From contig WFMF01000434.1 in NCBI GenBank assembly GCA_011033025.1, positions 89,634 through 153,633 on the forward strand: DNA of 64,000 bases, in the 5' to 3' direction. The notes under the pieces were generated by a model. It was not told the origin of the DNA and did no database searches. It saw nothing but the letters and a program-made list of their open reading frames with translations. Every line of letters starts with the position of its first letter. Within the stretch, counting starts at the first letter, position 1. The DNA is from Beroe forskalii. Taxonomy: Eukaryota > Ctenophora > Nuda > Beroida > Beroidae. The translations under genes were made by a program, and so were the position numbers. Shown here piece by piece: positions 3,680 to 62,132 of this stretch.

Positions 3680-4855
3680 ATTAATCGATTCGATTCGTCG
3701 ATCTGATTTGTCGATTCGATTCGTCCATTCGATTCGTCGATTCGATTATTCGATTTGTCGATTCGATTCGTCGATTCGATTCGTCGATTCAATTCGTCGA
3801 TTCGATTCGTCGATTCAATTCGTCGATTCGATTCGTCGATTCGATTCGTCGATTCGATTATTCGATTCGTCGATTCGATTCGTCGATTCGATTCGTCGAT
3901 TCGATTCGTCGATTCGATTCGTCGATTCGATTCGTCGATTCGATTCGTCGATTCGATTCGTCGATTCGATTCGTCGATTCGATTCGTCGATTCGATTCGT
4001 CGATTCGATTCGTCGATTCGATTCGTCGATTCGATTCGTCGATTCGATTCGTCGATTCGATTCGTCGATTCGATTCGTCGATTCGATTCGTCGATTCGAT
4101 TCGTCGATTCGATTCGTCGATTCGATTCGTCGATTCGATTCGTCGATTCGATTCGTCGATTCGATTCGTCGATTCGATTCGATTCGTCGATTCGATTCGT
4201 CGATTCGATTCGTCGATTCGATTCGTCGATTCGATTCGTCGATTCGATTCGTCGATTCGATTCGTCGATTCGATTCGTCGATTCGATTCGTCGATTCGAT
4301 TCGTCGATTCGATTCGTCGATTCGATTCGTCGATTCGATTCGTCGATTCGATTCGTCGATTCGATTCGTCGATTCGATTCGTCGATTCGATTCGTCGATT
4401 CGATTCGTCGATTCGATTCGTCGATTCGATTCGTCGATTCGATTCGTCGATTCGATTCGTCGATTCGATTCGTCGATTCGATTCGTCGATTCGATTCGTC
4501 GATTCGATTCGTCGATTCGATTCGTCGATTCGATTCGTCGATTCGATTCGTCGATTCGATTCGTCGATTCGATTCGTCGATTCGATTCGTCGATTCGATT
4601 CGTCGATTCGATTCGTCGATTCGATTCGTCGATTCGATTCGTCGATTCGATTCGTCGATTCGATTTGTTGATTCGATTTGTTGATTCGATTCGTCGATTC
4701 GATTCGTCGATTCGATTTGTTGATTCGATTCGTCGATTCGATTCGTCCAATCCATTCGTCCAATCCATTCGTCCAATCGATTCGTCCAATCGATTCGTCC
4801 AATCGATTCGTCCAATCGATTCGTCCAATCGATTCGTCAATTTGATTCGTCGATT
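3680..4855. repeat. 13-bp satellite, forward block
   Basis: About 90 near-perfect copies of a 13-bp unit (ATTCGATTCGTCG). Variants are concentrated at the edges, for example CAATCCATTCGTC near 4745-4840. The unit has no stop codon in any frame and its length is not a multiple of three. All six frames are therefore open with a 13-residue period, which explains the very long apparent ORFs. These are not treated as genes. Confidence 0.95.
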
Positions 4856-5560
4856 TGAATCGAATCGACAAATCGAATCGACAAATCGAATCGACGAATC
4901 GAATCGACGAATCGAATCGACGAATCGAATCGACGAATCGAATCGACGAATCGAATCGACGCTCGAATCGAATCGACGAATCGAATCGACGAATCGAATC
5001 GACGAATCGAATCGACGAATCGAATCGACGAATCGAATCGACGAATCGAATCGACGAATCGAATCGACGAATCGAATCGACGAATCGAATCGACGAATCG
5101 AATCGACGAATCGAATCGACGAATCGAATCGACGAATCGAATCGACGAATCGAATCGACGAATCGAATCGACGAATCGAATCGACGAATCGAATCGACGA
5201 ATCGAATCGACGAATCGAATCGACGAATCGAATCGACGAATCGAATCGACGAATCGAATCGACGAATCGAATCGACGAATCGAATCGACGAATCGAATCG
5301 ACGAATCGAATCGACGAATCGAATCGACGAATCGAATCGACGAATCGAATCGACGAATCGAATCGATGAATCGAATCGACGAATCGAATCGACGAATCGA
5401 ATCGAACAAATCGAATCGACGAATCGAATCGACGAATCGAATCGACGAATCGAATCAACAAATCGAATCAACAAATCGAATCGACGAATCGAATCGACGA
5501 ATCGAATCGACGAATAGAATCGACGAATCGAATCGACGAATCGAATCGTCGAGTCGAGTC
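4856..5560. repeat. 13-bp satellite, inverted block
   Basis: About 54 copies of the reverse complement of the preceding unit (CGACGAATCGAAT). The switch point is near 4850-4862, so the two blocks can pair as one very large hairpin. Small unit deletions occur near 4962 and 5402. Confidence 0.95.
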
Positions 5561-6235
5561 GTCGAATTGAATCGAATCAAATCGGATCTATAGAAAAATC
5601 CGGTTTACCGGAACGGATCGGACCGGATCTGGATTTTTGGCAAGATTTTACCCTTAACCGTATCAAATCGAATAAGCAACTTTGCTTACTCAGAACACCT
5701 ATACCTCATTTTTGTTTCGATATGCTGCGTTAATACTTTAATAATCCATCTCATAGAGTTTTTATATGTACATACTATTGTAAGTTACAGAGTCCGTAGT
5801 TCGATGCTTAGAATTTAGATAGGCAGTTAGTGCTTTATTGGATTGATTGGTTGGTACTGGAAATATGAACCACAGAAAATCACAAGTTAATGTCTAATTG
5901 GATGTTACTGGCTGTCAGGCAGTCAAACGACTAATGGTCAAGGGACTAATGAGCCTCAATATACCTAGCAATGTATATATCTTTACAGCACTGAAAGGGA
6001 TTCAATGAAAACTGAGACAGGGTAACTTGATCAACTTGTTATTGTACGCATCAGAGTATTGAAGTATTGAATTTTCATAATTTAGGATATTCATATTTTG
6101 GTGAAACCCTCCGATACAGTAACCCTGTGATCCGGATCCAGTGAAATTTTGACCCTCAAACCGGACCGGATCGGATCGCCCAAAAAACGCCCGGATCCCG
6201 GACCGGATCTGAGATCCGGTCGGTTCCTAGCGTGT
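5561..6235. other. Spacer inside the palindromic element, no gene seen
   Basis: AT-rich sequence framed by two GGATC/CCGGATC-rich stretches (5580-5635 and 6125-6225) that are roughly inverted to each other. No ORF with coding character is seen. Confidence 0.6.
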
Positions 6236-43553: not shown

Positions 43554-43901
43554 TTGCCCAAGGAAAGTCAGTGTTCCTCCAGACAGCCAAAGAATTGCCA
43601 TAAGGAATCACCAATCGATCACATTCCTCATAGATCTAATGGCAGTAACTTTAAGGAAAATATAAATAAATTTTTCAGCAATAAAGTCCAAAGTTACAGA
43701 TCATGAATTTGTATACCAATGACCTATTGAATATGACTAATCCTGGTTTGACCTTTGATCAAATGGGAGGCCTAGGTGAGATGGAAAAAGTTGCAACCTT
43801 TACACATTCAGATCAAAAAATTGCAAATAATGATAATATTATTTGGGTGCTTAGGTGTCGAATTCAGTGCTATCCAAACTACGAAATATCAATGACTCTG
43901 A

Positions 43902-46319
43902 CAAAGAACCTTGTCACGTCAGGGCACTGAAGGGCACTAGGGCACTACGTTAGGGCACTGAGGGCACTACGTTAGGGCACTTAGGGCACTACCTTAGGGC
44001 ACTTAGGGCACTACGTAAGGGCACTGGGGCGCTAAGTTGGGGCACTTCGAAATGGCAATGGCATTCGGTTAGTTGACATGTTTATTCATAAATATGTTTA
44101 TTTACGGTGTTTATTCACCCTACAGATTTAAGCTGGTTTACCAGCTGTATTTTGCGAAATTACACAGGCACAACAACGAACACCTTTGATCAGCACATTC
44201 CTCACATTGCATTTACTGCGTACTTTTACAAACCGTAATATGTATCAGCTATCTTGCCGAAGGTGAAGGGGTCAGACAACGTCTGACAATCACTATCATA
44301 GCCAATGTATGTCACGTGATGTCGCCCCGTGAATGGAATGTGGTTAATATGCCTTATGCATTTTTGAGAGTTGTTGCAACTGGCGATGTACACCGTGAGT
44401 GGTCATGGTGCCTCTTTCGTTCTCCATTTATATTTTGTATGGTCGGTCGTTCAGTGTTCAGAGTGCATTCTGCCTATACTGCTATTTACCTACATTTTGA
44501 TGAATTGATCTAGTGCTGATTTATACAATGTACCAATTGTAATGACAATTGAGCATGTACATACTACATACTTAAATTGATTTAAAGACAGTCAGGGCCG
44601 GGTATTTGGGTAGTCATTGGTGGTGTCTGTCTGTGTGACCGTGTGTCATGCCGATGTGTAACTGTAAGCAATGATGGGACGAGGACTTTAACCTCATGAT
44701 TCATCGTATCTTTTCCCGATGTTTTAAGTTTATGATGAGACAGCAGAAACAGAGGTTTTCTTTGTATCGTGTGTAGTACGCCAGCCAGCATACTTACGGC
44801 TTCACGGGCACATAACAATCCTCACCCTCTCATAGACATCCTAAACTCGTCACCTACCACCACTGCAAAACTTCTTCGATTCTCCATTGCCTGTAAACAC
44901 CAGTGCTCCAGTGGCTCAGTGATGCCTTTTTTAGTCCTGTGTGTAGCCTGTTACCTTTAAATTTGATATTGCTGATGCCAACTGCTTCGCGGCTGGCGTC
45001 AGCAGGACTCATAGCACCAGTCAAAAAACGTATTCATATTGCATGGTCGAGATGTGCGTGGATGTTAGTGCACACCACAGTCCACACTCCACACCCTATT
45101 CCCAGTGTTTTCACATCATTCATACACGTTCGCGCCTTCCATAAATTCCAACTACGTCAGGGCACTCGAGGGCACTCTAGGGCACTTTTTGGGGCACTCC
45201 GGGGCACTAAGTATTGGACGCAGAAGTAACATGTCGTACAGCAGGGGACTTCATTGAGTTCACCATGCCGGACACACATTAGCACCACGACAAAAGTTGA
45301 CTTTATACCCTGTGTCTAATGGAAATGTTTCCTTGCGTTTGACAATTGATGCTCACACAGTACTATTAAATTTCCAATTTGATGTTATATAAGCTAGTCT
45401 TTATGTGAGAGACGAACCGGAAGAACCAACTATCAAGCACACCAGACAACGGAATCAATCTAAATCTTGGCTGTATAATCATATTCGTTGCTATAGCTAT
45501 GTCCTGTAAGTGTACGGAGCCCCTGTTTCGATTCCTTTTATACTTATAGACTCGATCACATTCACATGAATAATGTGATCAAGTTTATACAAGGAATCGA
45601 AACTCAGGGACACATGATCTAAATCACTTGATCAAAAGATAATCACTTGATCAAAAGGTATAGATTACATAACCACGCGACCAGAAATTGAGAGTCAGAA
45701 TCAGAATGTACTTAATAAAAATGGATGACGAAAGAGGTACAACTCATGATGTACATTGCTATAGTTAAATGTACTCTCAAAAATGCAGAGTAACCGCATT
45801 CCATACCTGACACGTGACATGCATTGTCTATCACTATGATTTCTTTTTAATTCAACTATGATATAACGGTTTTCAAATGTACAGTAATTACATAAATACA
45901 ATATTCTGCTGATTTCAATGTGTTCGTTATTGTACCCGAGTACATTCATTAAATACAGTAAATGGAGCAAGTAAACCGGGTCAAATTAATGAGGTAAATA
46001 AGCAGGGTTAATTAATATTAAACTTAAAGTTAACGGTAAATAGACATTGTAAACAGATGACCTAACAGAGTTCCCCGATGCCCTAACGGAGTTCCTCGGT
46101 GCCCCAACGGACGCGGAGTGCCCCCGTGCCCTGACGTAGTGCCCCAGTGCCCTGACGTAGTGCCCCAGTGCCCTGACGTAGTGCCCCAGTGCCCTGATGT
46201 AGTGCCCTTGAGTGCCCTGACGTACGCTTAGTGCCCTTGAGTGCCCTGACGTAGTGCCCTAAGTGCCCTAACGTAGTGCCCTGTGCCCTGAGTGCCCTAA
46301 AACGTGACAAGGTTGTCTC
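43902..46319. mobile_element. hAT-like non-autonomous element, copy A (2418 bp)
   Basis: Starts CAAAGAACCTTGTCACGT and ends ACGTGACAAGGTTGTCTC; 14 of 18 terminal positions are inverse matches. The direct repeat GACTCTGA lies on both sides (43894-43901 and 46320-46327). Subterminal regions are arrays of the heptamer AGGGCAC, inverted at the other end. The interior has a hairpin near 45525-45610. A 78-codon minus-strand frame (44582-44818) is shared with copy B but has no recognised domain. The 8-bp duplication supports hAT-type mobilisation. Confidence 0.8.
44254..44289. mobile_element. 36-bp TTG...CAA mini-insert in copy A
   Basis: TTGCCGAAGG ... CAACGTCTGACAA, followed on the right by TCACTATC (44290-44297) and preceded on the left by TCAGCTATC. 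Copy B keeps the left duplication as exact TCACTATC but has lost the right end, so the insert predates the split of A and B and was later damaged. Confidence 0.6.
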
Positions 46320-46533
46320 GACTCTGAAGTATTCTGTATTTAAACTTACAATACAACACATATTAAACAAACTAACTAGAACTGAGGCAATGGGGGCCTC
46401 AAATATGATTGAAGCACTGTCCACTGATGATGTTCTAAAAGTACTTTGCCATTTAACAATCAGCTCATGTGTCTCAATAAAGTGTTCCAAAACCTGGTAA
46501 TTGACAGTGAAAAAGTATAAGCCCCACAGTCAT

Positions 46534-46554
46534 TTGTCTGACGTCGTCAGACAA
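46534..46554. mobile_element. 21-bp palindromic mini-insert
   Basis: TTGTCTGACG, T, CGTCAGACAA: a perfect palindrome around one base, flanked exactly by ACAGTCAT (46526-46533 and 46555-46562). It looks like two minimal ends of the mini-insert family with no interior. Confidence 0.6.
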
Positions 46555-47009
46555 ACAGTCATAAGTTTTATAAGTGCAGTCTTCTACTCTTCTTATTGTA
46601 ACTGTCTTCAATGTGACAGTAGCAAATTTTGAAATGAATTTAAGGATTTCATAGAAAAGATTATTCTTGTGAAGAATTATAACTGTTACAAATTGCTTTG
46701 AATTGAAACTGTCAAACCGCTGCAGCTCTTTATTTATTATCCTTTTACAAGAGCAGTTTATGTTAGCTAGAACATGACATTTATGATTATTCTTGATACA
46801 TTTAAAAGAATTTTGATACAATATGAATTATTATATTGTGTTTTAGGACCACGACCGTATATTACTTTACACCGCGCGTGCACATTGCCCTAACCAGCGC
46901 CCTGGTTTCGCGCACGGAGTGCGCGGCGCGGCAAGCCCGCAAGCCGCTGGGTAGGGGAAGCATAGGTGTGTTTACGCGCCGCGCGCTGCCCTGGAGAGTT
47001 GGAAGCGCG

Positions 47010-48590
47010 CTGCGCACTATAGGCCAGTTTCGCGCGGGGCGGCACTAGGGAGATTTTACGATGCGCGAAATTTGAAAAGTACCACCTATTCAAGGACAAA
47101 TTACACTGTGCTATTATTCTGTTTACTACTTGAAGTGCGGTTATTCTGATTCAGGAAAGACAGCTGGTTGTCAGAGTATGTTTCATTTTCCAAAATACCA
47201 ACATTTCATACGGTTTCTATATCCCCAAACTTGGGCAATTTGCCGTGCTTGTAACTTTTTACCACCGTTTCCCACCCTTACCGGACCTTCACTCCATTAC
47301 TTTTCAGACTCTTGCCAACAACATCCAATCGGTCCCACGCCGCGGACAAGCGCGGAAAATGGTCAAATCGGCCGACAAAGATTGGTGGTCGTAAATAAAA
47401 CGACGCGATTTTCGACGTGTTTTACGCGTCAAATCGCGTCGGTTTTCGATAAACCGCAAATCTTTGACGGCCGACCCGATTAAGTTCCGCGCTTTTCAAC
47501 GGTATAAGACCGACCGGATGTTGTTGACAAGAGCCTAAAATGGAAGTAGGTGAAAGTCCGATAAGGGTGGGATTCGGTGGTAAAAAGTTACAGACACGGG
47601 AAATCTCATAATTCATGCTCAAATGTTCGCTATAACGCAGCTAAGATAACCACGAGAAAAGAGAGTATATGTACATATTTCAAAGCACAAACGATAATTC
47701 CCATTTGGAAACCATAAACAGAACAAAACTTAAAACACATGAAAGCCAACTTTAAATTACAGCAAAATATGGTTCTTTTATTCCGAATAATACTCTTATC
47801 ATTCCATTGAAAATTGAAAGGAGCATTCAGCCTACTGAAGTACTTAAATATGCTCATTAAGTTCATATCCCAAAAAGCTGATTAAATATGAAGATGGACA
47901 GAATCACATTCATTAGCTTCAAACTCAAAACAATTATTCACTGTGACTATTTAATCTATACCTATTTCATGTTTGATAGTGATACCCTTTCGAAGACTGA
48001 AGAGTTGCTTTAGTTTCGCACTGATCACTGCATGAGTACTGCACCTGGTTCATCATCACAGTCCTGAGGCACGAGTAGGGTTTCCTGAAGAAGATCTCAG
48101 TAGTCATGGGTTAATTTGAAGTTCAAGGAACCAATTTATCCCATCTCCCTACCTGAGATAAACGTTTTTAAGATCAATCGAGGAATCTGAAACAGAGAAT
48201 ACGCTGAGAAATACGGCGCGAAGAGTTTATAATTGCTCGCGAAAAATGCTTTTCTTGATTGGAAGCTCATTTGGGAAGACCCTTTTGAAAATATATTGCC
48301 AAATTGTGACAAAGATGCCACAAAAGTGATTATTGGAATGTGATTGGAAAGTGATTGGAATATAATTTGATAGCAATTGATGGGTTTTAGGTGCGCTATT
48401 TGTTCAGCGCCTTTAAAACTTGAAATTCAAAGCGAATGCGATGGAACAATACTAGCTAAGGGGTGAAGGGGACAGTGTAGGTTGTAAGGAGTGATTACAT
48501 TAACCTCAAAAGACACTACATGATCATTAGCAATTCCATTTATAGAGTGGAAGAGGTTTTAGCCAACAGTCGTTCTTGGATGAATACAGG
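47010..48590. repeat. Large dispersed repeat, copy 1 (uninterrupted)
   Basis: Closely similar to 50938-51549 plus 54243-56087 plus 62133-62228. It includes an inverted pair (about 47255-47330 with 47520-47595), a 61-codon minus-strand frame near 48136-48321, and a GTGATTGGAA short tandem near 48330. It preserves the empty sites of three insertions present in copy 2. No gene is supported. Confidence 0.8.
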
Positions 48591-48639
48591 AAATCAGCTG
48601 AGGATTACATTCATTAAGTTTTACTGCAACTGATGTGGT

Positions 48640-49829
48640 ATTGTTGAATGAATCAGCAATTACTCTCCTTCCTTAACTAATACTCCATTTATCACAAAAG
48701 TTTTTCACCTTGCTTTTACATTTGCCCTGAGCTCATTGATAAGTTGCCATGTCTGTTTACTGTCTCCATGACAGTTATCAAATTTTAGAAAAGAATTTCT
48801 TTTAGCAGCACGTATAAGAGTGGTCAATTTTTTCTGTATTTTTATATTTTTCAAACAGAGTTTGATCACCAGATTTCAGTTTTGAATTTTGCTGCTTTTC
48901 CATTTCTTGTATAAAAGTTTTTATAGTTTATAGACTTCATCAGACCATTAGTGACCCAAGGATTTTCCAGTCGGTTTCGCTTTGTTTTCAATTTATTAGC
49001 TGGGTCAGTTCTAAAGCATTCATCTAAAGTTGCATTAATATGATTAGTGAATTCATTAAACCTTTTCGTCAGCTGTATACTGATTTCTTTCTAGGATAAA
49101 GTTCATTTTTCTATCAAATTCAATGATATTACTTTCACAGAAGTCATAAGTGAATTCCTTTTCATTTTTCTCATCACTCTGTGTGTCAACAGAAAGATCA
49201 AAAAAGCAAACTATAGGGAAGTGGTGAGATACCTTAAGTTCCGTGTGATGCTCCAGAGCTTAACACAATCAATTGATGATACGAGCACATTATCTATACA
49301 TGATGATTCACAGCCAGGTTTTCATGAGTAGCTACCGAAATGAGTGGAGAATAACAATTACCAAAGAAATGTTCTCCAGCTTAGACTTATTAAATCGTTC
49401 TTGAACAGGTTAATGTTGAAATCTCCAGTAATTATTATGACAATCATTAAATGATGAGGATATACTGTTGAGAACTTTTTCAAACTGTTGGTAAAAAGTT
49501 TTAGAGTTTCCACTTGGTGGCCTATACACAACACCAAATAATATGGGCTTTTGAGTGTTAGAAATTTTTATGAAAAGGGTCTCAATGTCTTTGCATGTCA
49601 TGCTTAGTGTTTTTATTCTATCAGAGCAGTTTAAATGTTCTTTAGCATAAATAGTCAGGCCACTTCCTTTATGTTTACCCTTAATTTTAGAGGAGCAAAT
49701 AGATTGGTATTTTGGAATTTGATATAGATTTTTATGCTCTTCTTCTATATTTGTTTCAGCAATGGATATCAAGTCAAAAGAATTATTGATAGTGGAAAGC
49801 TGTGAATAAAGAGAGTCAAAGTTTTTCAA
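48640..49829 (-). pseudogene. Decayed non-LTR retrotransposon (LINE) fragment, endonuclease region
   Basis: The minus strand encodes an apurinic-type endonuclease segment: ISIAETNI near its start, KGSGLTIYAKEHL, and VVYRPPS with the usual spacing. A frameshift near 49430 moves the conserved GDFNIN to another frame (about 49412-49426). Further down, a linker with NPWVTNGLMKSI (about 48940-48975) is typical of jockey/CR1/L2-type LINEs. Multiple stops and frameshifts follow, and I find no intact reverse transcriptase. It is dead and 3'-incomplete. Confidence 0.75.
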
Positions 49830-50528
49830 TATAGATTATTGAAAATATATTGTCCTAAATGTGCTGTAATATTCAAATTCAAATTCATATCTAAACAATT
49901 CGTGGATTCTTACAGAGGTGTCAGCACTTCAAGAAATGACAATCATTCTGAAATTTTCATCACACATATAGGTATGTGAATAAATTGTTGAATCAGTATC
50001 ATAATAATAAAAAACTGTAATTGCCAAGTTCCACAACACGAATAACCACAATGAGCTGACTTTTTAATGCAACGTACTTTCAGATCATCATCAGTGCAAA
50101 AGTCATTGAGTTACCTCAAATTTGATTGCATAGTGTTTAAATCAGTATCAGGCATGTACAAACAGCAGTTTTGCAGAAATTTCAGACACTGACCTCAGAA
50201 GTGGCAACACCTCTGTTACACAATGACCCATGATGGCTTTGAGTATGAATTTTAATATATAAACTGAACAACCACTGCACAAACAAAAACTGTGCATCAT
50301 AAACATCTCTGAGGAGAGCCAAATATTTTATATTATGTTTCGAGAAAGCACCACACTTTTATTATGGATAGTATAGTATACCTCAACAACAGAAAAAAAT
50401 GAAATATAAATTATGAAATATAAATATAAATATAAAACTTTTGCTTTTCAGCAACACAGTTCCACAACAAACTCTTCAGAAAACTATACCGAAAAGCAAT
50501 GATTTTTAAAAAGTGCAATGAAATTTAT
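49830..50528. other. Noncoding AT-rich stretch
   Basis: No exon or repeat recognised apart from AAATATAAATAT-type low complexity near 50400. Confidence 0.45.
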
Positions 50529-50601
50529 TTGCCAGGCGTTGCCTGGCCCCCTCGCAGAGTCGCGGGAAAAAATATGGGGCGGGGCAGGCAACGTCTGGCA
50601 A
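50529..50601. mobile_element. 73-bp TTG...CAA mini-insert
   Basis: Left end TTGCCAGGCGTTGCCTGGC and right end GCAGGCAACGTCTGGCAA; each end is itself a hairpin. AAATTTAT flanks it exactly on both sides (50521-50528 and 50602-50609). Confidence 0.7.
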
Positions 50602-50709
50602 AAATTTATTTAGAAAAAACTAAAAATCGTGCGCATTACATTCCCTTTGCTCTAACCAGATTCTTAGTTTTACGCGCGCAGCGCCTGGCCTTGCTCGTTT
50701 CGTGACGCC

Positions 50710-50800
50710 GCGACGCCCCTGGTTGCTCTAACCAGGACCCTGGTTACGCGCACGGAGTGCGCGGCGCGACGCCCCTGGTTAGGGGGACGTCCCTGGTTAG
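50710..50800. repeat. CCCTGGTTAGGG-type short palindromic repeat
   Basis: Contains the GACCCTGGTT and CGACGCCCCTGGTTAGGGG blocks that recur near 46888, 57320, 57840, 60750 and 60975, with a GCGCACGGAGTGCGCGG hairpin between them. Confidence 0.55.
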
Positions 50801-50937
50801 GGGAAATTATATTCCTTTTGTGTAATTGCGTTCCTAAGCCCGCATAGGTGTGTGACGTGTGTACACGTACGCGACCGCGACGCAAACAGGGATATACTTG
50901 CCCTAATGGCCTAACCATGAGGACCGCGCTTCCTAAG

Positions 50938-51549
50938 CCCGCACTATAGGCCAGTTTTGCGCGGGGCGGCACTAGGGAGATTTTACGATGCGCGTCAATT
51001 TGAAAAGTGCCCTCTCTTTAGTGACATCTTAGGCAAACTTAATATTGTTTGGGATACTTGAAGTGCGGTTATTCTAGTTCAGCAAAGTCTGCAGATTGTC
51101 ACAATGTGAGCCATTTTCCAAAACACCAAAATTTTGTATGGTTTCTGGGTCACCAAACTTGGACAACTTGCCGTGTCTGTAACTTTTTCCCCCAAAATCC
51201 CCCACCTATCAGACCCTCACTCCCCTCCCTTTCAGACACTTGCCAACAACATCCAATTGATCATACAGCGCGGAAAAGCGCGGAACATCGTCAAATCGAC
51301 CGTCAAAGATTGGCGGTCGTAAATAAAACGACGCGATTTTCGACGTGTTTCACGCGTGCAAGTCACGTCGGTTTTCGATAAACCACAAATCTTTGACGGC
51401 CGATTTGAACAAGTTCCGCGCTTTTCCGCAGAATAAACTTGATTTGATACTGTTGGCAAGAGTCTTAAAGGGAAGAAGGTGAAAGTCTGATAGGTGGGGG
51501 ATTTTCGGGGGAAAAGTTACAGACACGGCAAATCTCAAAATATAAGCTC
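50938..51549. repeat. Large dispersed repeat, copy 2, part 1
   Basis: Matches 47010-47620 of copy 1, including the inverted CGACGCGATTTTCGACG-type centre, and is interrupted at 51550 by copy B of the hAT-like element. Confidence 0.8.
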
Positions 51550-51576
51550 AAATTTTCCAAAGAACCTTGTCACGTC

Positions 51577-51667
51577 TTGTCTGACGTCGTCAGACCCATT
51601 ATTTAAAATTTTAAATTTATCTGCGAGTCGTGGCGCGCGCGCGAGGGGGTCAGGCAACGCCTGACAA
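51577..51667. mobile_element. 91-bp TTG...CAA mini-insert inside copy B
   Basis: The ends TTGTCTGACGTCGTCAGAC and GTCAGGCAACGCCTGACAA are each palindromic; the centre is an AT run then a GCGCGCGCG tract. GTCACGTC is duplicated exactly (51569-51576 and 51668-51675). Copy A has the single-copy empty site GTCACGTCAGGGCAC at 43913-43927. Confidence 0.75.
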
Positions 51668-52210
51668 GTCACGTCAGGGCACTACGTTAGGGCACTTAGG
51701 GCACTACGTAAGGGCACTGGGGCACTAAGTTAGGGCACTTCGAAATGGCATTCGGTTAGTTGACATGTTTATTCATAGATATGTTTATTTACGGTGTTTA
51801 TTCACCCACCCTACAGATTTAAGCTGGTTTACCAGCTGTATTTTGCGAAATTACACAGGCACAGCAACGAACACCTTTGATCAGCACATTCCCCACATTG
51901 CATTTACTGCGTACTTTTACAAACCGTAATAGGTATCACTATCTTGCCGAAGGCGAAGGGGTCAGACTATCATAGCCAATGTATGTCACGTGATGTCGCC
52001 CCGTGAATGAAATGTGGTTAATATGCCTTATGCATTTTTGAGAGTTGTTGCAACTGGCGATGTACACCGTGAGTGGTCATGGTGCCTCTTTCGTTCTCCA
52101 TTTATATTTTGTATGGTCGGTTGTTCAGTGTTCAGAGTGCATTCTGCCTATACAGAGTGCATTCTGCTATTTACCTACATTTTGATGAATTGATCTAGTG
52201 CTGATTTATA

Positions 52211-52261
52211 CTAGCCAGACGTTGCCTGCCGCGCGCGAGGGGGCCAGGCAACGCCTGGCAA
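52211..52261. mobile_element. 51-bp mini-insert inside copy B
   Basis: TAGCCAGACGTTGCCTG ... CAGGCAACGCCTGGCAA, flanked by GATTTATAC on both sides (52203-52211 and 52262-52270; an 8-bp duplication with one shared base). Copy A has the empty site CTGATTTATACAATG at 44517-44531. Confidence 0.75.
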
Positions 52262-54242
52262 GATTTATACAATGTACCAATTGTAATGACAATTGAGCAT
52301 GTACATACTACATACTTAAATTGATTTAAAGACAGTCAGGGCCGGGTATTTGAGTAGTCATTGGTGGTGTCTGTCTGTGTGACCGTGTGTCATGCCGATG
52401 TGTAACTGTAAGCAATGATGGGACGAGGACTTTAACCTCATGATTCATCGTATCTTTTCCCGATGTTTTAAGTTTATGATGAGACAGCAGAAACAGAGGT
52501 TTTCTTTGTATCGTATGTAGTACACCAGCCAGCATATTTACGGCTTCACGGGCACATAACAATCCTCACCCTCTCATAGAGATCCTAAACCTGTCACCTA
52601 CCACCACTGCAAAACTTCTTCGATTTTCCATTGCCTGTAAACACCAGTGCTCCAGTGGTGCCTTTTTTAGTCCTGTGTGTAGCCTGTTACCTTTAAATTT
52701 GATATTGCTGATGCCAACTGCTTCGCGGCTGGCGTCAGCAGGACTCATAGCACCAGTCAAAAAACGTATTCATATTGCATGGTCGAGATGTGCGTGGATG
52801 TTAGTGCACACCACAGTCCACACTCCACACCCTATTCCCAGTGTTTTCACATCATTCATACACAGATACACGTACGTATGCGACAGTTGTTTGTTAATAC
52901 ATGTTCGCGCCTTCCATGAATTCCAACTACGTCAGGGCACTCGAGGGCACTTTTATGGGGCACTCCGGGGCACTAAATATTGGACGCAGAAGTAACATGT
53001 CGTACAGCAGAGGACTTCAATGAGTTCACCATGCCGGACACACATTTGCACCACGACAAAAGTTTACTTTATACCCTGTGTCTAATGGAAATGTTTCCTT
53101 GCGTTTGACAATTGATGCTCACACAGTACTATTAAATTTCCAATTTGATGTTATATAAGCTAGTCTTCATGTGAGACACGAACCGGAAGAACCAACTATC
53201 ACGCACAGCTCACCAGACAACGGAATCAATCGTCTTGGCTGTATAATCATATTCGTTGCTATGGCTATGTCATGCGGAGCCCCTGTTTCGATTCCTTTTA
53301 TGGACTTGATCACATGAATAATGTGATCAAGTTTTATAAGAGATTCATCACTCGAGGACACATGATCTAAATCACTTGATCAAAAGATAATCACTTGATC
53401 AAAAGGTATAGACTACATAACCACGAATAATGTGATCAAGTTTATACAAGGAATCGAAACTCAGGGACACATGATCTAAATCACTTGATCAAAAGATAAT
53501 CAATTGATCAAAAGGTATAGACTACATAACCACGCGACCAGAAATTGAGAGTCAGGATCAGTAGTGACACTATAGTGTAGGTATATAGCAGAATGCACTC
53601 TGTGAACACTGAACCGGAACGACCGACCAATGCCATACTGATACAAAATGTACTAAATAAAAATGGATGACGAAAGAGGTACAACTCATGATGTACATTG
53701 CTATAGTTAAATGTACTCTCAAAAAGCAGAGTAACCACATTCCATACCTGACACGTGACATGCATTGTCCATCACTATGATATAACGGTTTTCAAATGTA
53801 CAGTAATTACATAAATACAATATTCTGCTGATTTCAATGTGTTCGTTATTGTACCCGTGTACATTCACTAAATACAGTAAATGGAGCAAGTAAACCGGGT
53901 CAAATTAATGAGGTAAATAAGCAGGGTTAATTAATATTAAAGTTAATGGTAAATAGACATTGTAAACAGGTGACCTAACAGAGTTCCCCGATGCCCTAAC
54001 GGAGTTCCTCGGTGCCCCAACGGAGTGCCCCAGTGTCCTGAAGTAGTGCCCCAGTGCCCTGGCGTAGTGCCCCAGTGCCCTGACGTAGTGCCCTTGAGTG
54101 CCCTGACGTACGCTTAGTGCCCTTGAGTGCCCTGACGTACGCTTAGTGCCCTTGAGTGCCCTGACGTAGTGCCCTAAGTGCCCTAACGTAGTGCCCTGTG
54201 CCCTGAGTGCCCTAAAACGTGACAAGGTTGTCTCAAATTTTC

Positions 54243-56087
54243 GTTATAACGCAGCTAAGATTAACACGAAGAAAGAGAATATATGTACATAATATTTCAA
54301 AGCACAAAGGATAATTGGAAACCATAAACCGAACAAAAACTTAAAACCAATGAAAGTCAACTTTAAATTACTGCATTCTTAAGTAATGAGCTGCAAAATA
54401 TGGGTCTTTACTCTGAATACACTCAGTTTTTTTTATAAGAAACTTATTGAAAACCTAGGCTACAAGTTTCTTATTTTTTCACGATTTTGAGCCTAAAAGT
54501 TTCTTAATCGGTTTCTTAATTCTACATACCGACATACCGTACAGCAAAATGTTAACCAAATTTCCAATATAGGAACCTACTTTGTAGACTGTAGTTGAGG
54601 ATTAAATCGAACCTTCTGATATTTTTAGGTAAATTATACAATTTTAAGCATGTACCTACCTACCTATCTTAAAAGATTTGTGCAACTGTATACAATGTTC
54701 AGGGATCTTCATCAAATGTTCTTCCAAAAAGTTCACTTAATTTTAAAATTTAGATAATATCTAAATCCTATAAAGATTTACCCAGCCGAGCTTAATGCTT
54801 GGAACTTTTGGAAATAGATATGGAACTGTAATAGTGTCCTGTCTCAACAACAATTTCTAAATTTCTGTTTTGTGCTTGGTAATAAAGTCCAATGGAAGTA
54901 CTTGATTACCTAGTTTCGAAATGTTCGCAATCAAAAGGGGGGGGGGGGGGCCCCAGAAACCAAACGTTTCATGTTAAAAAAGAATTTCAGTTGCAATAGG
55001 ATTTTATACACAAATTTCAAAATTCTAGGCTAGAAGTTTCTTAATTTCTTAATTGTAAATCGTTTAAGTTTCTTAATTTTTCCGAAATTCTAGGCTAAGT
55101 TTCTTAAATTTTCGGAAATCCTAGGCTAAGTTTCTTATAGACAGTTTCTTATCAAAAAAACTGAGTGTAATACTCTAATATCATTCTACTGAAGTACTGA
55201 AAATTGAAAGGAGCATTCAGCATACTAAAGTACTCAAAATTTGCTCAAAAAGTATCCCGTAAAGCTGTGTAAATAGGGAGCTGGAATGATCACATTCATT
55301 AGCTTCATTCTTCAAGTTCAAACTCAAAACAATAATTCATTGTGACTATTTCTATCTGTACCTATTTGATAGTGATACCCTTTCGAAGAGATGCTTTCGT
55401 TTCACACTGATCACTGCATGAGTACTGCACCTGGTTCATCATCACAGTCCTGAGGCACGAGTAGGGTTTCATGAAGAAGATCTCAGTAGTCATGGGTTAA
55501 TTTGAGAAGTTCAAGGAACCAATTTATCCCCATCTCCCTACCTGAGATAAACGTTTTTAAGATCAATCGAGGAATCCGAAACAGTACAATACGCGCGCCG
55601 AGAAATGCAGCGCGCGAAGAGTTTATAATTGCTCGCGAAAAATGCTTTTCTTGATTGAAAGCTCATTTGGGAAGACCCTTTTGAAAATATATTGCCAAAT
55701 TGTGACAAAGATGCCACAAAAGTGATTGGAAAGTGATTGGAAAGTGATTGGAATGTGATTGGAAAGTGATTGGAATATAATTTGGATAGCAATTGATGGG
55801 TTTTAGTTGTGCGCTATTTGTTCAGCGCCTCTAAAACTTGAAATTCAAAGCGAATGCGATGGAACAATGCGATGGAAAGTGATTGGAATGCGATGGAAAG
55901 TGATTGGAATGCGATGGAAAGTGATTGGAATGTGATTGGAAAGTGATTGGAAAGTGATCGGAAAGTGATTGGAATATAATTTGGATAGCAATTGATGGGT
56001 TTTAGTTGTGCGCTATTTGTTCAGCGCCTTTAAAACTTGAAATTCAAAGCGAATGCGATGGAACAATACTAGCTAAGGGGTGAAGGG
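54243..56087. repeat. Large dispersed repeat, copy 2, part 2
   Basis: Continues the match to copy 1 (47630-48470), interrupted by the MITE at 54420-55167. The end segment is tandemly duplicated (55785-56070) with GTGATTGGAA and GCGATGGAA short repeats. Confidence 0.75.
54420..55167. mobile_element. Tc1/mariner-type MITE with TA duplication, 748 bp
   Basis: The TIRs of about 24 bp start CACTCAGTTTTTTT and end in the inverse CTGAGTG, with TA on both sides (54418-54419 and 55168-55169). Copy 1 of the host repeat shows the empty site GAATAATACTC (about 47784-47794). The interior is AT-rich with repeated CTAGGCTAAGTTTCTTA-like words and an 11-base G run. No transposase. Confidence 0.8.
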
Positions 56088-57545
56088 GAGAAGTGGGCAA
56101 ATGTAAAGTTCTGCGCAAGGCTTAACTGAGCGCAAATTTGCGCTCATTTGCGCTCGTTAGCGCTCAAATTAGGGAAATTTTGCGCTCGTTAGCGCTCATT
56201 TGCGCTCCGGAGCCTCGAAAATGACTGAGCGCAAATGAGCGCAAAATTTTGCGCTCATACGTGCTCTTCATCGCTCATATGTGCTCATTAACGCTCGTTA
56301 GCGTCCATTTTGCGCCCACTTTGCGCCCATTTTGCGCTCAGAGCGCTAACGAGCGCAAAATGATCCCTGGAAAAATGTCTTTTTTGCGCTCAGATGCGCT
56401 CATTTGCGCTCAGCCATACTGAGCGCAATTTTGCGCTCATTAGCGCCCATAAGCGCCCGTAAGCGCTCAGTTGCGCTCAGTTGCGCTTATTGCCGATTTG
56501 CGCCCAGATGCGCTCAATTGCGCTCAGTTTCACCACACCTCAGCAATTTTGCGCCCTATTTGCGCTCAGCCTTTCTGAGCGCAAATGAGCGCTAACGAGC
56601 GCAAAAATTTTGCGCCCATTTGCGCTCGTATGTGCTCATTTGCGCTCGAAAGCGCTCATTTGCGCTCGGAAGCGCTCATTTGCGCTCATTTGCGCTCGGA
56701 AGCGCTCATTTGCGCTCGGAAGCGCTCATTTGCGCTCGGAAGCGCTCATTTGCGTTCGAACGCGCTCATTTGCGCTCGAAAGCGTTCATTTGCGCTCGGA
56801 AGCGCTCATTTGCGCCCAGTTATTAGAGGCTTACGTTTCTGAGCCGGCATAGGTGTCTTGTACTAGCACATTGCGTGAAGGGCGCAGCTCACAAGCCACG
56901 AACCGTCGAAACATAGGTCTTGCTTGTTGTTTCACGTGCTAACAGAGAACTTTAACTGCACACGTCACAGATGTTTGCAAGCATGGGCATATAAATATGA
57001 AATCCGATCATTGTTATTGAGCAAGGCTGAAGGCAATCTGAATCAGTGTCACAATAAAAAGTCGCGGCTCACAGTGCAGACTACCCTTCTCTGCCGTGGT
57101 TGCTAGGCAACATGAACAATGTCATGTCACGTGACTATATACTAATCCAGTGCCGACCACAGGTTCGAAGTAGACCACAGGTTCGAAGTAGTTTCCTACG
57201 AGTCGTGTTGCAAAAAATGTGCGTGCGGTGGAGGGTAGCCCTGACCCCTTATCAATTCAAAGCGCTAGATGCGATGCGCTTAATCATATTTTCTGGGTGA
57301 CGTCATAGATTATGAAGGCTTCCGTTTTCTCTAACTAGGGGCGTCGCGCCGCGCATTCTTTGCACAAAACCAGGGTCATGGTATTGGTTGCCTGGTGATA
57401 GGATTTACCCTACCTCCGCCGCGCGCCATTTTTTTCTGCAACACGACCCTAGTCCAAATTTGCGAGTGTTGCGCGCTAGGGATGGGTGAAATCCATCTAG
57501 GTGATACCAGACGTGCAGACCCGCTGATGCAGCCGCTGACTGAGC

Positions 57546-57616
57546 TTGTCAGACGTTGGTGCGTCGGCCGGAAGGGTCTTTCACCGAAACTGAAGGGGTC
57601 AGACAACGTCTGACAA
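57546..57616. mobile_element. 71-bp TTG...CAA mini-insert, imperfect flanks
   Basis: TTGTCAGACGTTGG ... GGGGTCAGACAACGTCTGACAA. The left flank is GACTGAGC and the right flank is GACACTGAGC, an 8-bp repeat disturbed by two bases. Confidence 0.5.
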
Positions 57617-57831
57617 GACACTGAGCGGTGCAAGCGTCTGCGTCGCTCAGAAGGGTCTTTCATCGATACTGATAGATAGAGACAAGGTCATGGTTAGGGC
57701 AACTGCAAATGCAAGCGCCTCGACGGACGTTGCCCGTCCATTTCTTCTGACTGGATGGCTCCCGTTATATATGGGAGACTAGACCAAACTGAATATGGGC
57801 TATTCTCCATAAAATTATAAACGGGAGCTTG

Positions 57832-57892
57832 CCCTAACCATGACCCTGGTTTTGTGCAGAGAGTGCGCGGCGTGACGCCCCTGGTTTTGGGG
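57832..57892. mobile_element. CCCTAACC-type mini-insert
   Basis: GCCCTAACCATGACCCTGG ... CGACGCCCCTGGTTTTGGGG. Around it AAACGGGAGC and AAACAGAAGC lie left and right. The uninterrupted form AAACGGGAGCCTTCATT occurs at 60196-60212, so the insert split a copy of that repeat with a duplicated target. Confidence 0.5.
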
Positions 57893-58013
57893 AAACAGAA
57901 GCCTTCATTATCTAATTCCATGAGTAACACGTGTCACCCAGAAAATAAAATTAAAATTAAGAGCATCTCATCTTATACCCGCAACAATCCACATTTGGGT
58001 CTCCCATATAAAC

Positions 58014-60191
58014 TAGGCTGTAACCTATTTTGGACTTTTTCCCAAAATGATTAACTTGGGGTCCTAAGTTTGTTAAGAAGGTATGTTTTGAACCATGAAA
58101 CAAGAATTTTTGGAAAAAATCATTTTTTAGACCCTGCTGTCCCCCAAAGAAGAGCGCGCCTAAGTGAAAATTCCTGACAAGGTCATAACTTTTTCATTTT
58201 TGAGATACAAAACGATAGAGTACTCAACATGCGCAGAATCATCACATTTCCAATTTAGAAATCATCAAAAGTGCATCAGAAGCTCTTTTTTTGAAGATAT
58301 GGAGCATATTTTGATTTGTGCTTCACTCACATGACTTTAGTGATTTTTGATAATTTCATCTAATCATATTGTTTTTTTAAGATGAAGTCAACTGTTCTAA
58401 CACGATTAAAACACAATCCAGAAGGGTATTGAATGTTAAAAAGCTTTGACAAGCATGTAAAATGGTAGATTGAGTCAACTAGAGGCCGTATTGTCAGCAT
58501 GTTTCTATGTTAGGCAAGGCGCATATTATGCGCTTTGCATTAACTTTGATGCCCCCTACTGTTTTAACAGGTCATATGTCACTCACTGAAACTGTACTAT
58601 TTTTGCTCAGTATGTCAGGCTGCCTCACAAGCCCTTAGAACTATTTCTGCTCATGTCATGACCTCTGGGGAAGTTATAACACTTCCTGGATCAAGAGCTG
58701 GGTCAATGTGTTCTTCAATTCTAGGATACTGAGAAAGTTGGAGACTAATTATGTCTTTATCATGTATCCACATGACAATATTACCTTCCATAATCCACTA
58801 TCGATTACATACATTGCTGAGACCCAGCTCTGCACCACACAGGAACAGCAACATACCAGCACCCAATAGCCTCAATCAGAACCCAGATCAATACCTAGAA
58901 TGTATAGATCATAGCAGTTTAACAAGTCACAGATCAGCTAGAGATAGTTATGTTCCATCTCCCTTCTTCTCTTCTTTTAGCTGGATCACATTGAGGTTTT
59001 ACCAAGTGGATGAGTATTCAATAAAGTACCTTCAAGAAATAAAGTGACAGCCATTTTGTCATTCGGCAGGCAGTTTGAACACATGCATGAACATTAGGAT
59101 GTCAATAATTGTTATTCATGCCAATCAAGGTGCCATAGATTATACTCAAATCACCTTTCCCAGCCCCCTGGTCTAAATTAGTAAGTGGAGACTGGAAAAT
59201 GGTGTACATTGAAAGCTCTCAAGGGTTTGAGGCATTTATAATTCAGGTCCCAAATGTCCTCAGTAACTAGCTATCCAATGAGGCTATAAATGGATAATGG
59301 TAGAAAATATTGTCAAGGGCAGACGCAATAAAGACATAACAAGTCTGAGCTGATGCCTGATTTTCTTAGTATCGAAATTTACATTGATCCAGCTCTGAAA
59401 ACTCTGTTATATAGATTTTCATTCTCATCTGGTCTTGCTACTGACAAAAAACAACAGACTTTTTCAGCTCTGAAAACTTTGTTATATAGATTTTCATTCT
59501 CATCTGGCCTTGCTACTGACAAAAAAAAACAGACTTTTTCATTCATACTATTATGCAGAAACATTTCAATGGCTTTATGAGGCCGCCTGATGTACTGAGC
59601 AACAATCCTCAGTACTTCAGTGAGTGACATATGACCCAAAAACAGCAGGGCATCAAAGTCAATGCAGAGCGCACAATATGCGCCTTGCCTAACACAGAAA
59701 TATGCTGACAATACGGCCTCTAGTTGACTCAATCTACCATTTTACATGCTTTTAAAGCTTTTTAACATTCAATACCGTTCTGGATTGTGTTTTAATCGTG
59801 TTAGAACAGTTGACTTCATCTTCAAAAAACAATATGATTAGATGAAATTATCAAAAATCACTAAAGTCATCGCGAGTGAAGCACAAATCAAAATATGCTC
59901 CATATCTTCAAAAAAGAGCTTCTGATGCACTTTTTGATGATTTCTAAGGTGGGAAATGTGATGATTCTGCGCATTTTGAGTACTCTATCGCTTTTGTATC
60001 TCAAAAAATGAAAAAGTTATGACCTTGTCAGGAATTTTCACTTACGCGCGCTCTTCTTTGGGGGACAGCAGGGTCTAAAAAATGATTTTTTCCAAAAATT
60101 CTTGTTTCATGGTTCAAAACAAACCTTCTTAACAAACTTAGGACCCCAAGTTAATCATTTTGGGAAAAAGTCCAAAATATGTTACAGCCTA
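58014..60191. mobile_element. 2.2-kb fold-back element with 8-bp duplication, nested
   Basis: The ends TAGGCTGTAAC and GTTACAGCCTA are flanked exactly by ATATAAAC (58006-58013, 60192-60199). The arms 58014-58560 and 59640-60191 are inverse. The centre includes a direct duplication (near 59390-59470 and 59467-59545). The unoccupied target is seen at about 21546-21570 (CCCATGTAAACGGGAGCC). No transposase; hAT-like by duplication length. Confidence 0.8.
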
Positions 60192-60199
60192 ATATAAAC

Positions 60200-60410
60200 G
60201 GGAGCCTTCATTATCTATGACAATGACGTCACTCAGAAAAATATAATTAAGTGCACCTAGCGCTTTAAGGACTACGGTTAGGGTCAGGATTAGGGTCAGG
60301 ATTTGTTAGGGTTAGGGTTAGGATTAAGGTTAGGGTTTTGGTTAGGGCTATGGTTAGGTTTAGGATACAGAAAAATTGACGTTTAGATCTGTGACGTCAC
60401 TCAGAGCCGT
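60200..60410. repeat. Dispersed repeat with TTAGGG-like runs
   Basis: Matches 21555-21760: GCGCTTTAAG, then several GGTTAGGGTT runs, then GATACAGAAAAATTGAC. With 57900-58013 it is one repeat split by the element at 58014-60191. Confidence 0.7.
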
Positions 60411-60586
60411 TTATATGGGAGAGATACCCACATTTGAGTTTGACCGATGGTCACATTTGCGCGTTCGCCATTTGACCAGTTGGCAACCCAGTCAGAATAA
60501 ATAAATGGGCAACGACCTTGTCCGATAACGTCCGTTGACAAAACGACCCCCCAAATTTTGCCTCCAAATTAGTGTCCCATATAATT

Positions 60587-60637
60587 TTGTCAGACGTTGT
60601 CTGACCCCTTCGCCTTCGGTCAGACAACGTCTGACAA
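60587..60637. mobile_element. 51-bp TTG...CAA mini-insert
   Basis: TTGTCAGACGTTGTCTGAC, a CCCCTTCGCCTTCG centre, then GTCAGACAACGTCTGACAA. Exact ATATAATT on both sides (60579-60586 and 60638-60645). It is the cleanest family member. Confidence 0.75.
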
Positions 60638-60744
60638 ATATAATTAGAGCGCCCGCGCCTTCACCATCTATGACAAACGCGTCACTTGGAAAAATATAGT
60701 TATTAATTAAGCGCATCTGCCATCCAACGCTTTAAAGGCCAGGG

Positions 60745-60829
60745 AGCCCTAACCAAAACCAGGACTCTGGTTTTGCGCAGAGCGTGCGTGGCAAGCGACT
60801 TAGCGACGCCCCTGGTTACTGGTTTGGGG
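60745..60829. mobile_element. 85-bp CCCTAACC-type mini-insert
   Basis: AGCCCTAACCAAAACC ... CGACGCCCCTGGTTACTGG, flanked by AAGGCCAGGG at 60735-60744 and 60830-60839 (8 bp or slightly more). Confidence 0.55.
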
Positions 60830-60967
60830 AAGGCCAGGGTTAGGATCTCATGATTAGGGCCATGATTTGTTAGGTTTAGGGTAAGGGTGATATGAGAATC
60901 AGCGACCGACGCTGAATTCTCGTGATGTCGAGGGTCTGTCTACGGCCGACAAGGGGACTGGCAACGC

Positions 60968-61025
60968 TTTGCCCTAACCTGCACTAACCAGGACCCTGGT
61001 TTTGCGACGCCCCTGGTTAGGGGAA
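60968..61025. mobile_element. 58-bp CCCTAACC-type mini-insert
   Basis: TTTGCCCTAACC ... CCCCTGGTTAGGGGAA, flanked exactly by GGCAACGC at 60960-60967 and 61026-61033. Confidence 0.6.
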
Positions 61026-62132
61026 GGCAACGCCAGACATTCAGACAAATTGGGATATTTGAAGTTAGTGCCGCGCATTAAAAATAATAAATATGAATCT
61101 ATACCCATGAACTGCCGTTATCGGCACTGGATAGTCACGTGTCATGCATCAATCGACATTGTAAAAATTTCATAGCAACCCCTGCAGAAAACGAATAGCC
61201 TGCACTTGGCACTGCGAGCCGCAATTCGTTATGTGATTGCCTAACTCTGCTTTCTAAAACTCTTGCAATTGCATAAGTTCTTTGACGTTTCGAGGAAGCA
61301 AAGAATGTGAATGTATAATTTAAACCCCTGAATCCCTGATTCGATGCTTCGTGGCATGTGAGCTCCGCAAGCCAGCTGCCAGCACCTGACTTTTATTCCG
61401 GCTCAGGAACGTAAGTCTCTAATAACTGGGCGCAAATGAGCACAAATGAGCGCAATTGAGCGCTAATGAGCGCAATTGAGCGCTAATGAGCGCAATTAAG
61501 CGCTAATGAGCGTAATTGAGCGCTAATGAGCGCAATTTAGCGCTAATGAGCGCAATTAAGCGCTAATGAGCGCAAATGAGTATAAGAAAGTTTTATTTTT
61601 TGTAAAATAGCTACAACTGAGCGCAGCTGAGCGGAATTGAGCGCAACTGAGCGCAAAATTGAAATTATTTGCGCTCAGCACAACTGAGCGCAAAATTGAA
61701 AATTTGCGCTCAGTTGTTCTGAGCGCATATGAGCGCAAATGAGCGCAAATGAGCGCAAAATAATTTGCGCTCAGTAAAACTGAGCGCAAAATGCAAAAAT
61801 TTGCGCTCGTTAGCGCTCATTTTCAAATTCTGTAAATTTTGCGCTCGTTAGCGCTCTGAGCGCAAAATGGGCGCAAAGTGGGCGCAAAATGGGCGCTAAC
61901 GAGCGTTAATGAGCACATGATATGAGCGATGACGAGCATATATGAGCGCAAAATTTTGCGCTCAGTTATTTTCGAGGCTCTAGAGCGCTAATGGGCGCTA
62001 ACGAGCGGTAATGAGCGCTAACGAGCGCAAAATTTTGCGCTCGTTAGCGCTCGTTAGCAATCATATGTGCTCAATTGTGCTCATTTGCGCTCAATTAAGC
62101 CTTGCGCTATACTTTACATTTGCCGAGAAGTG

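Follow-up and report, generated by a model that had tools for sequence, protein, structure and literature searches.

We analyzed a window of 64,000 nucleotides from the ctenophore Beroe forskalii (contig WFMF01000434.1; C508:89634-153633 in our numbering) together with the assembly searched (216 Mb, 1,134 contigs). The window contains seven very short transposon-like sequences with self-palindromic ends and, at several of them, exact 8-bp target site duplications (TSDs). A first-pass annotation had pointed to these seven places; the sequences it described are present at all of them, and the five duplications it gave as exact are confirmed (at 46534, 50529, 51577, 60587 and 52211; Table 1). Its central proposal is supported: the insertions are dispersed, their ends are palindromic in themselves, and both 8-bp duplications and empty sites accompany them. 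We consider it probable that these sequences represent a non-autonomous family of hairpin chains, similar to miniature inverted-repeat transposable elements (MITEs), whose longest members measure about 110 bp, and that the forms of 21-51 bp are mostly scars that arose in place.

Table 1. Copies of the hairpin family in the window, their flanking duplications and their empty sites (window positions).
Position	Strand	Feature	Flanking sequence
44254-44289	-	36-bp subfamily A copy; without one of the terminal hairpins, which makes it 15 bp shorter than the copy at 60587	right TSD TCACTATC at 44290-44297; left TSD decayed here
46534-46554	+	21-bp solo hairpin	exact TSD ACAGTCAT at 46526-46533 and 46555-46562
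50529-50601	+	73-bp subfamily C copy	exact TSD AAATTTAT at 50521-50528 and 50602-50609
51577-51667	-	91-bp subfamily B copy	exact TSD GTCACGTC at 51569-51576 and 51668-51675
52211-52261	-	51-bp subfamily C copy	TSD GATTTATA at 52203-52210 and 52262-52269
57546-57616	-	71-bp member; one end with an intact hairpin, the other with half of one	no 8-bp TSD
60587-60637	+	51-bp subfamily A copy	exact TSD ATATAATT at 60579-60586 and 60638-60645
51944-51967	-	copy B remnant of a 44254-type insertion; right hairpin lost in place (alignment)	
43913-43920	+	copy A empty site of the 51577 insertion	single GTCACGTC
44518-44525	+	copy A empty site of the 52211 insertion	single GATTTATA

That two members measure 51 bp each is a coincidence, since they come from different subfamilies. 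The 60587 copy has a perfect 20-bp terminal inverted repeat (TIR), each arm of which is a palindrome in itself, and the GC hairpin of the 51577 copy is shorter than that of a longer subfamily B copy. The 52211 copy can be described equally well as a 50-bp insert with the 9-bp TSD GATTTATAC. At the 44254-type insert, related host copies have TCACTATC on both sides. Because the 57546-57616 member has no 8-bp TSD and its middle is similar to the sequence immediately downstream, it is an altered or chimaeric copy. Exact 19-bp end motifs number nine in the window, all within 44-61 kb. Rfam gave no match within 43800-61500, and the short window copies fold less strikingly than some long ones (for the 44254 copy, 9 of 200 shuffles were equally good).

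To count the family genome-wide, we described its end by the degenerate pattern TTGYCWGRCGTYGYCWGRC, with the same pattern reversed as control. The pattern has 3,126 exact matches in the assembly and the control none; matches are spread over many contigs, some longer than 1 Mb. By this count, very short inserts resembling transposons are present in the genome in well over a thousand copies. On contig C1 the elements are clustered, with 10 of 28 neighbouring pairs less than 2 kb apart (random mean 0.63, maximum 4, in 2,000 trials).

TSDs were called at loci near motif matches among the first 100 listed and at some loci chosen by similarity to the 52211 copy; a partner end was sought within 650 bp of each anchor, and swapped flanks gave the chance level. 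An exact 8-bp duplication together with a partner end was found for 61 of 122 distinct anchors (0.84 expected), rising to 75 (3.1 expected) with one mismatch allowed. The remaining 47 had no 8-bp duplication even at one mismatch, in part because the caller demanded an AA terminus, where subfamily C frequently has TA. The length of the duplication is sharply defined. Among 262 opposed end pairs, exact duplications measured 8 bp in 66 (0.6 expected) and 9 bp in 4, with none at 4-7 or 10-13 bp and with 3-bp matches near chance (6 against 4.3).

An end-blind scan of termini, run with a tandem array at 3.7-5.6 kb of the window masked, ranked TTG/TTG first among termini at 8 bp, with 26 cases against 1, 3, 3 and 0 at 6, 7, 9 and 10 bp. 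At 9 bp other termini lead, with ACG/ACG at 18. The masked array (window 3685-5565) consists of about 144 copies of the 13-bp unit TCGATTCGATTCG and has long open frames on both strands. Of 83 TSDs of the family, 35 begin with G and 36 end in C, which marks a preference at positions 1 and 8. Of the features by which MITEs are recognized, fixed-length exact TSDs, TIRs, high copy number and empty sites are found, the TIRs with the qualification that the two B ends are alike only in part. We conclude that the copies form a dispersed, non-autonomous, MITE-like family, divided into three or more subfamilies.

The 44254, 51577 and 52211 copies, and a 21-mer at locus L109, are confirmed as insertions by paralogous host repeats in which the site is empty. 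In the scan for such sites, self-matches and weak candidates were discarded and the named cases alone were used. As the first-pass annotation had stated, the 51577 and 52211 inserts are absent from the paralogous copy A, which has the single-copy targets. The 52211 insert is absent from at least 23 other host-repeat copies including copy A (40 scored of 386 candidates), in which the flanks abut and share 7-9 bp; in one further host copy, on contig C471, the flanks lie about 480 bp apart. The 44254 insert is present in 6 of 13 aligned host-repeat copies, once partly deleted, and missing in 7, of which 3 have further small losses beside the site. At L109 (161-181), the 21-bp insert has TATATACC on both sides and lies inside a repeat compared in 33 distinct copies; 31 of the 32 others are without the hairpin-end motif at that point, and L087 is an empty copy with TATATACC. 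For the 46534 copy no empty site was found, its left flank alone being repeated in the genome, and the tandem satellite that hosts the L084 copy is ambiguous for such a reading. The repeat that hosts the L109 insert (TTGCTAAACACGTATATCCC...GGGCTTAGGAA; also at L204, L010, L030, L059, L069, L072 and others) is a miniature element itself, with an exact 9-bp flanking duplication in 16 of 30 copies measured and an 8-bp one in 2.

The architecture of the elements is dominated by palindromes. They run from TTG or TAG to CAA or CTA, and the arms of the end hairpin, placed around a 3-bp spacer, are GTCAGAC in subfamily A, GTCAGGC in B and GCCAGGC in C; the three subfamilies also differ in their interiors. 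Four of the seven stem pairs are nearly invariant. The three variable pairs covary, with Watson-Crick pairing at 4-18 in 101 of 150 ends (55.5 when shuffled), at 6-16 in 128 (89.4) and at 8-14 in 107 (68.0), although the shuffle ignores the relatedness of the copies, which must be held against our reading. The longest copies called measure 102-111 bp and are built as chains of palindromes, with a nested 126-bp composite as the exception. As single-stranded DNA, the 110-mer at L056 forms five consecutive hairpins (-35 kcal/mol; z -7.0 against dinucleotide shuffles), and in the C copy at L022 the two ends pair together and enclose the inner hairpins. A GC hairpin and a CGACTC..GAGTCG hairpin recur in the long copies of both B and C, whose AT-rich palindromes are not alike in sequence.

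Since each inverted end is palindromic, the two ends of an element are also direct repeats, and their collapse onto each other leaves a solo hairpin of 21 or 31 bp inside an intact duplication. The 21-bp solo-hairpin pattern occurs at 103 places in the genome and its control at none. We examined 44 of these places. The 21-mer itself is bracketed by an 8-bp TSD at 9 of them, exactly at 6 and with one mismatch at 3; at 11 the TSD encloses a 31-bp unit, and at another 11 a unit of some different length. The junctions of shortened copies are largely private. In a less selected set of 52 elements, 21-111 bp long and drawn from the window and from loci L009-L091 (45 with an exact duplication), there is no identical pair, and all 14 mappable single-deletion junctions are distinct. 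We also mapped deletions in 86 copies shorter than 98 bp against five actual long copies. In the 43 that a single deletion explains, the junctions had 0, 1, 2, 3, 4, 5 and 9 bp of microhomology in 3, 7, 13, 4, 1, 13 and 2 cases, where random junctions would give 19.8, 11.6, 5.0, 1.1, 0.3, 4.7 and 0.3. Loss in place is seen at the 44254-type insert, whose right hairpin is missing from copy B. A second case is offered by the L078 (86 bp) and L084 (93 bp) copies, which have the same TSD, left flanks alike at 57 of 60 positions and a difference inside the GC hairpin; common descent, and hence in-place loss, is likely there, if short of proven.

On the strength of the private junctions, the excess of microhomology, the loss in copy B and the solo hairpins, we hold that most copies entered at about 110 bp and then shrank where they had inserted. 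The ends, the 8-bp (occasionally 9-bp) TSD and the empty sites show insertion into a staggered cut of the kind made by cut-and-paste transposases. In the mechanism we propose, a transposase supplied in trans would recognize the ends, whose 7-bp palindromic arms enclose a 3-bp spacer, probably in duplex DNA and as a dyad. Shrinkage after insertion, for which the junctions above offer support, probably occurs through deletions between short direct repeats, with the hairpins helping. End-to-end collapse would then leave a 21-bp solo hairpin (31 bp in subfamily B) still flanked by the TSD, analogous to a solo long terminal repeat (LTR). The suggestion that the short forms are products of extreme internal deletion stands for much of the size range; their source, conversely, is a hairpin chain of about 110 bp and not a demonstrated kilobase-sized parent.

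Several observations weigh against in-place shrinkage. At 13 of the 44 solo-hairpin places there is no TSD under any reading tried, and a single deletion accounts for only half of the 86 short copies. Eleven of the 13 junctions with 5-bp microhomology are an identical 31-mer and perhaps not independent, and three junctions of copies of about 50 bp recur, twice each, with five of the six copies picked by similarity. To the right of L078 and L084, where the flanks lie in tandem-repeat arrays, no more than 47 of 60 positions match. Finally, a 91-bp B copy at L204 (1429-1519) occupies the same host-repeat point as the L109 21-mer. Because it has a TSD of its own (TATATCCC on both sides) and the opposite orientation, we take the two to have inserted independently at a single favoured target; L204 would then not be the uncollapsed form of L109.

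The best-placed alternative, to which we give a minor though real share of probability, is that the copies are deletion derivatives of an ordinary-size hAT, Merlin, MULE or P transposon, produced by abortive gap repair after excision, with a full-length copy that escaped detection. Such repair could leave microhomology too, and candidate parents exist in the genome, with 23 hAT, 35 Merlin and 46 MULE transposase matches (104 in all). Duplications of 8 bp, found here in 66 of 262 pairs, are the length made by hAT and by the P element, and occur in Merlin as well. However, when 30 of the 104 loci were inspected over about 1.5 kb on each side of the domain (12 hAT, 8 Merlin, 10 MULE), none had the 19-bp end at two or fewer mismatches, an absence that counts against our own reading as well. 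One locus had it with 3 mismatches and one with 4, near the background of one match with up to 4 mismatches per 74 kb of strand. The full-length relative with the same ends and a transposase that the first-pass annotation had proposed to look for was therefore found at none of the 30. Ends that could be defined differ from those of the family, in one hAT (CAGTAAACG.. and CAGTAAACGACCGA, TSD GTCCACTA) and in one Merlin (GGCAGTATT.. and GGCAGTATTAACGA, TSD AAATTTCC).

The target sites do not point to a hAT or MULE parent either, the TSDs showing G1 and C8. The hAT target consensus is nTnnnnAn, which the sites do not follow (T2 in 22 of 83, A7 in 21 of 83); MULE TSDs measure about 9 bp, as against 9 bp in 4 pairs and 8 bp in 66 here. 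The sites equally fail to follow nnnTAnnn, the consensus that PMC3517528 gives for Buster elements (T4 in 29 of 83, A5 in 24 of 83). Merlin and IS1595 elements, as PMC8101967 describes them, make TSDs of 8 or 9 bp like those seen here, and Merlin occurs in this genome, but they end in 5'-GG where the family has TTG or TAG. A profile search of the genome for P (PF21787) gave no match, with controls equally silent, and the same holds for a KDZ search. The hAT-like parent suggested at first is thus not supported: the family matches hAT elements neither in its termini nor in its target consensus, and none of the 12 hAT loci inspected, out of 23, has its ends. Descent from an ordinary-size parent can be combined with shrinkage in place.

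A less likely alternative is that the short forms, those of 31 bp and perhaps those of 21 and about 50 bp, are themselves mobile, a deletion derivative having been amplified by the transposase. The identical 31-mer lies at 11 different targets, with 9 exact TSDs and 2 with one mismatch, which likewise speaks against in-place shrinkage; L124 holds the 31-mer inside another palindromic element, and a 21-bp insertion with an 8-bp TSD sits in a repeat that is mostly empty in other copies. Conversely, the 31-mer is the expected product of deletion between the CTGAC repeats of two B ends, and this 5-bp microhomology can account for the recurrence without proving it. Neither identical pairs nor repeated junctions occur in the less selected 52 elements, and a duplex of 21-31 bp is stiff, with little space for a two-ended synapse. 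Most forms of 21-51 bp, which had been put forward as exceptionally small movable units, behave like copies shrunk in place, with the recurrence of the 31-mer still in favour of mobility. Somewhat more doubtful again is a transposon lineage of an undescribed type, in which the whole unit would be a palindrome chain of no more than about 110 bp and the 31- and 21-bp forms would still move, perhaps as extruded hairpins; if so, few transposable units known from nuclear genomes would be smaller.

By its behaviour this is a MITE family; its size and architecture recall mitochondrial hairpin elements. With Mar, a Drosophila hAT MITE, it has in common short non-coding units, inverted ends, exact TSDs, many copies and internal-deletion variants, as far as these are set out in PMC3517528. 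According to the same source Mar measures 610 bp and Vege 884 bp, with TIRs of 11-12 bp, whereas our longest copies reach about 110 bp, consist of consecutive palindromes and have scars down to 21 bp. The palindromic MITE-like clusters of Anopheles gambiae described in PMC3212995 are likewise bounded by palindromes or TIRs and without a known parent, but span 430-1678 nt against 21-111 bp here. Non-autonomous P-element-like copies, in the account of PMC7776569, resemble the family in their 8-bp TSDs, internal deletions and subterminal inverted repeats, and differ in the 31-bp TIRs of the fly element and in deleted copies of 0.5-2.8 kb, where ours have palindromic TTG ends and are far smaller. 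Introners, too, are insertions similar to DNA transposons, and some families have TSDs of 3-9 bp in the description of PMC9860276.

Short modular hairpin units are found in yeast GC clusters, Allomyces double-hairpin elements and sponge RHEs, as presented in PMC4478555 and PMC2800124. These are mitochondrial, whereas the present family lies on many contigs, some longer than 1 Mb, and is nuclear. It seems improbable that the family is the nuclear counterpart of such organellar elements, copied through a hairpin or RNA and not by a transposase. The size range, the end hairpins and the modular palindromes do resemble the descriptions in the two sources. The exact 8-bp duplication, however, is the signature of a staggered cut, while the Allomyces elements are described in PMC2800124 as lacking flanking duplications, and the target set of GC42 is the 2 nt AG in PMC4478555. 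That the palindromes arose by chance, or that the copies are fixed segments of a single larger repeat, is ruled out by the motif control, the varied targets and the empty sites: the 44254 copy is indeed common to six host-repeat copies, but the others lie at many different targets and are not always part of one larger repeat family.

In the open-access literature searched (titles and abstract openings) we found no description of such a family. A 20-mer of the end has 2 matches in viral contigs and 12 in prokaryotes, against about 7.5 expected by chance in our own estimate for the latter, and none continues like this family. Six of the 12 (L192, L193, L195, L200, L201 and L202) are metagenome-assembled genomes (MAGs) of Gastranaerophilales or "Cyanobacteria bacterium SIG" and have the palindrome TTGTCAGGCGTTGCCTGACCTAC in common, perhaps a bacterial REP-type repeat; its likeness to the end hairpin is probably coincidental.

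Further palindromic elements that run from TTG to CAA and carry 8-bp duplications lie at L057 (564-675), L124 (131-256), L034 (1694) and L023 (2654); their sequences read TTGTTGTACGATATTCGACC..., TTGTCGTACGATGTATGACC... (one TSD mismatch) and TTGCCACATGCTATGTGTCC.... Tandem pairs with three copies of one 8-bp duplication occur at L119 (161-247; GGATGGCT), L071 (783-978; TTCATTCC) and L082 (178-383; AGCCCGCA). The tandem elements at L119 are of different types, which suggests that one target was re-used. Tandem spacing among the loci examined was 8 bp in two pairs, 2 bp in two others and elsewhere represented by single cases, which is not yet a statistic.

With more than 3,000 exact ends, 8-bp duplications that match exactly, and repeated hosts that preserve empty sites, this family is a clean system in which to watch transposon shrinkage. 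Its solo-hairpin scars are a DNA-transposon counterpart of solo LTRs, of a size that annotation pipelines with length floors would overlook, and the family lets one ask what the minimum size of a transposable unit is.

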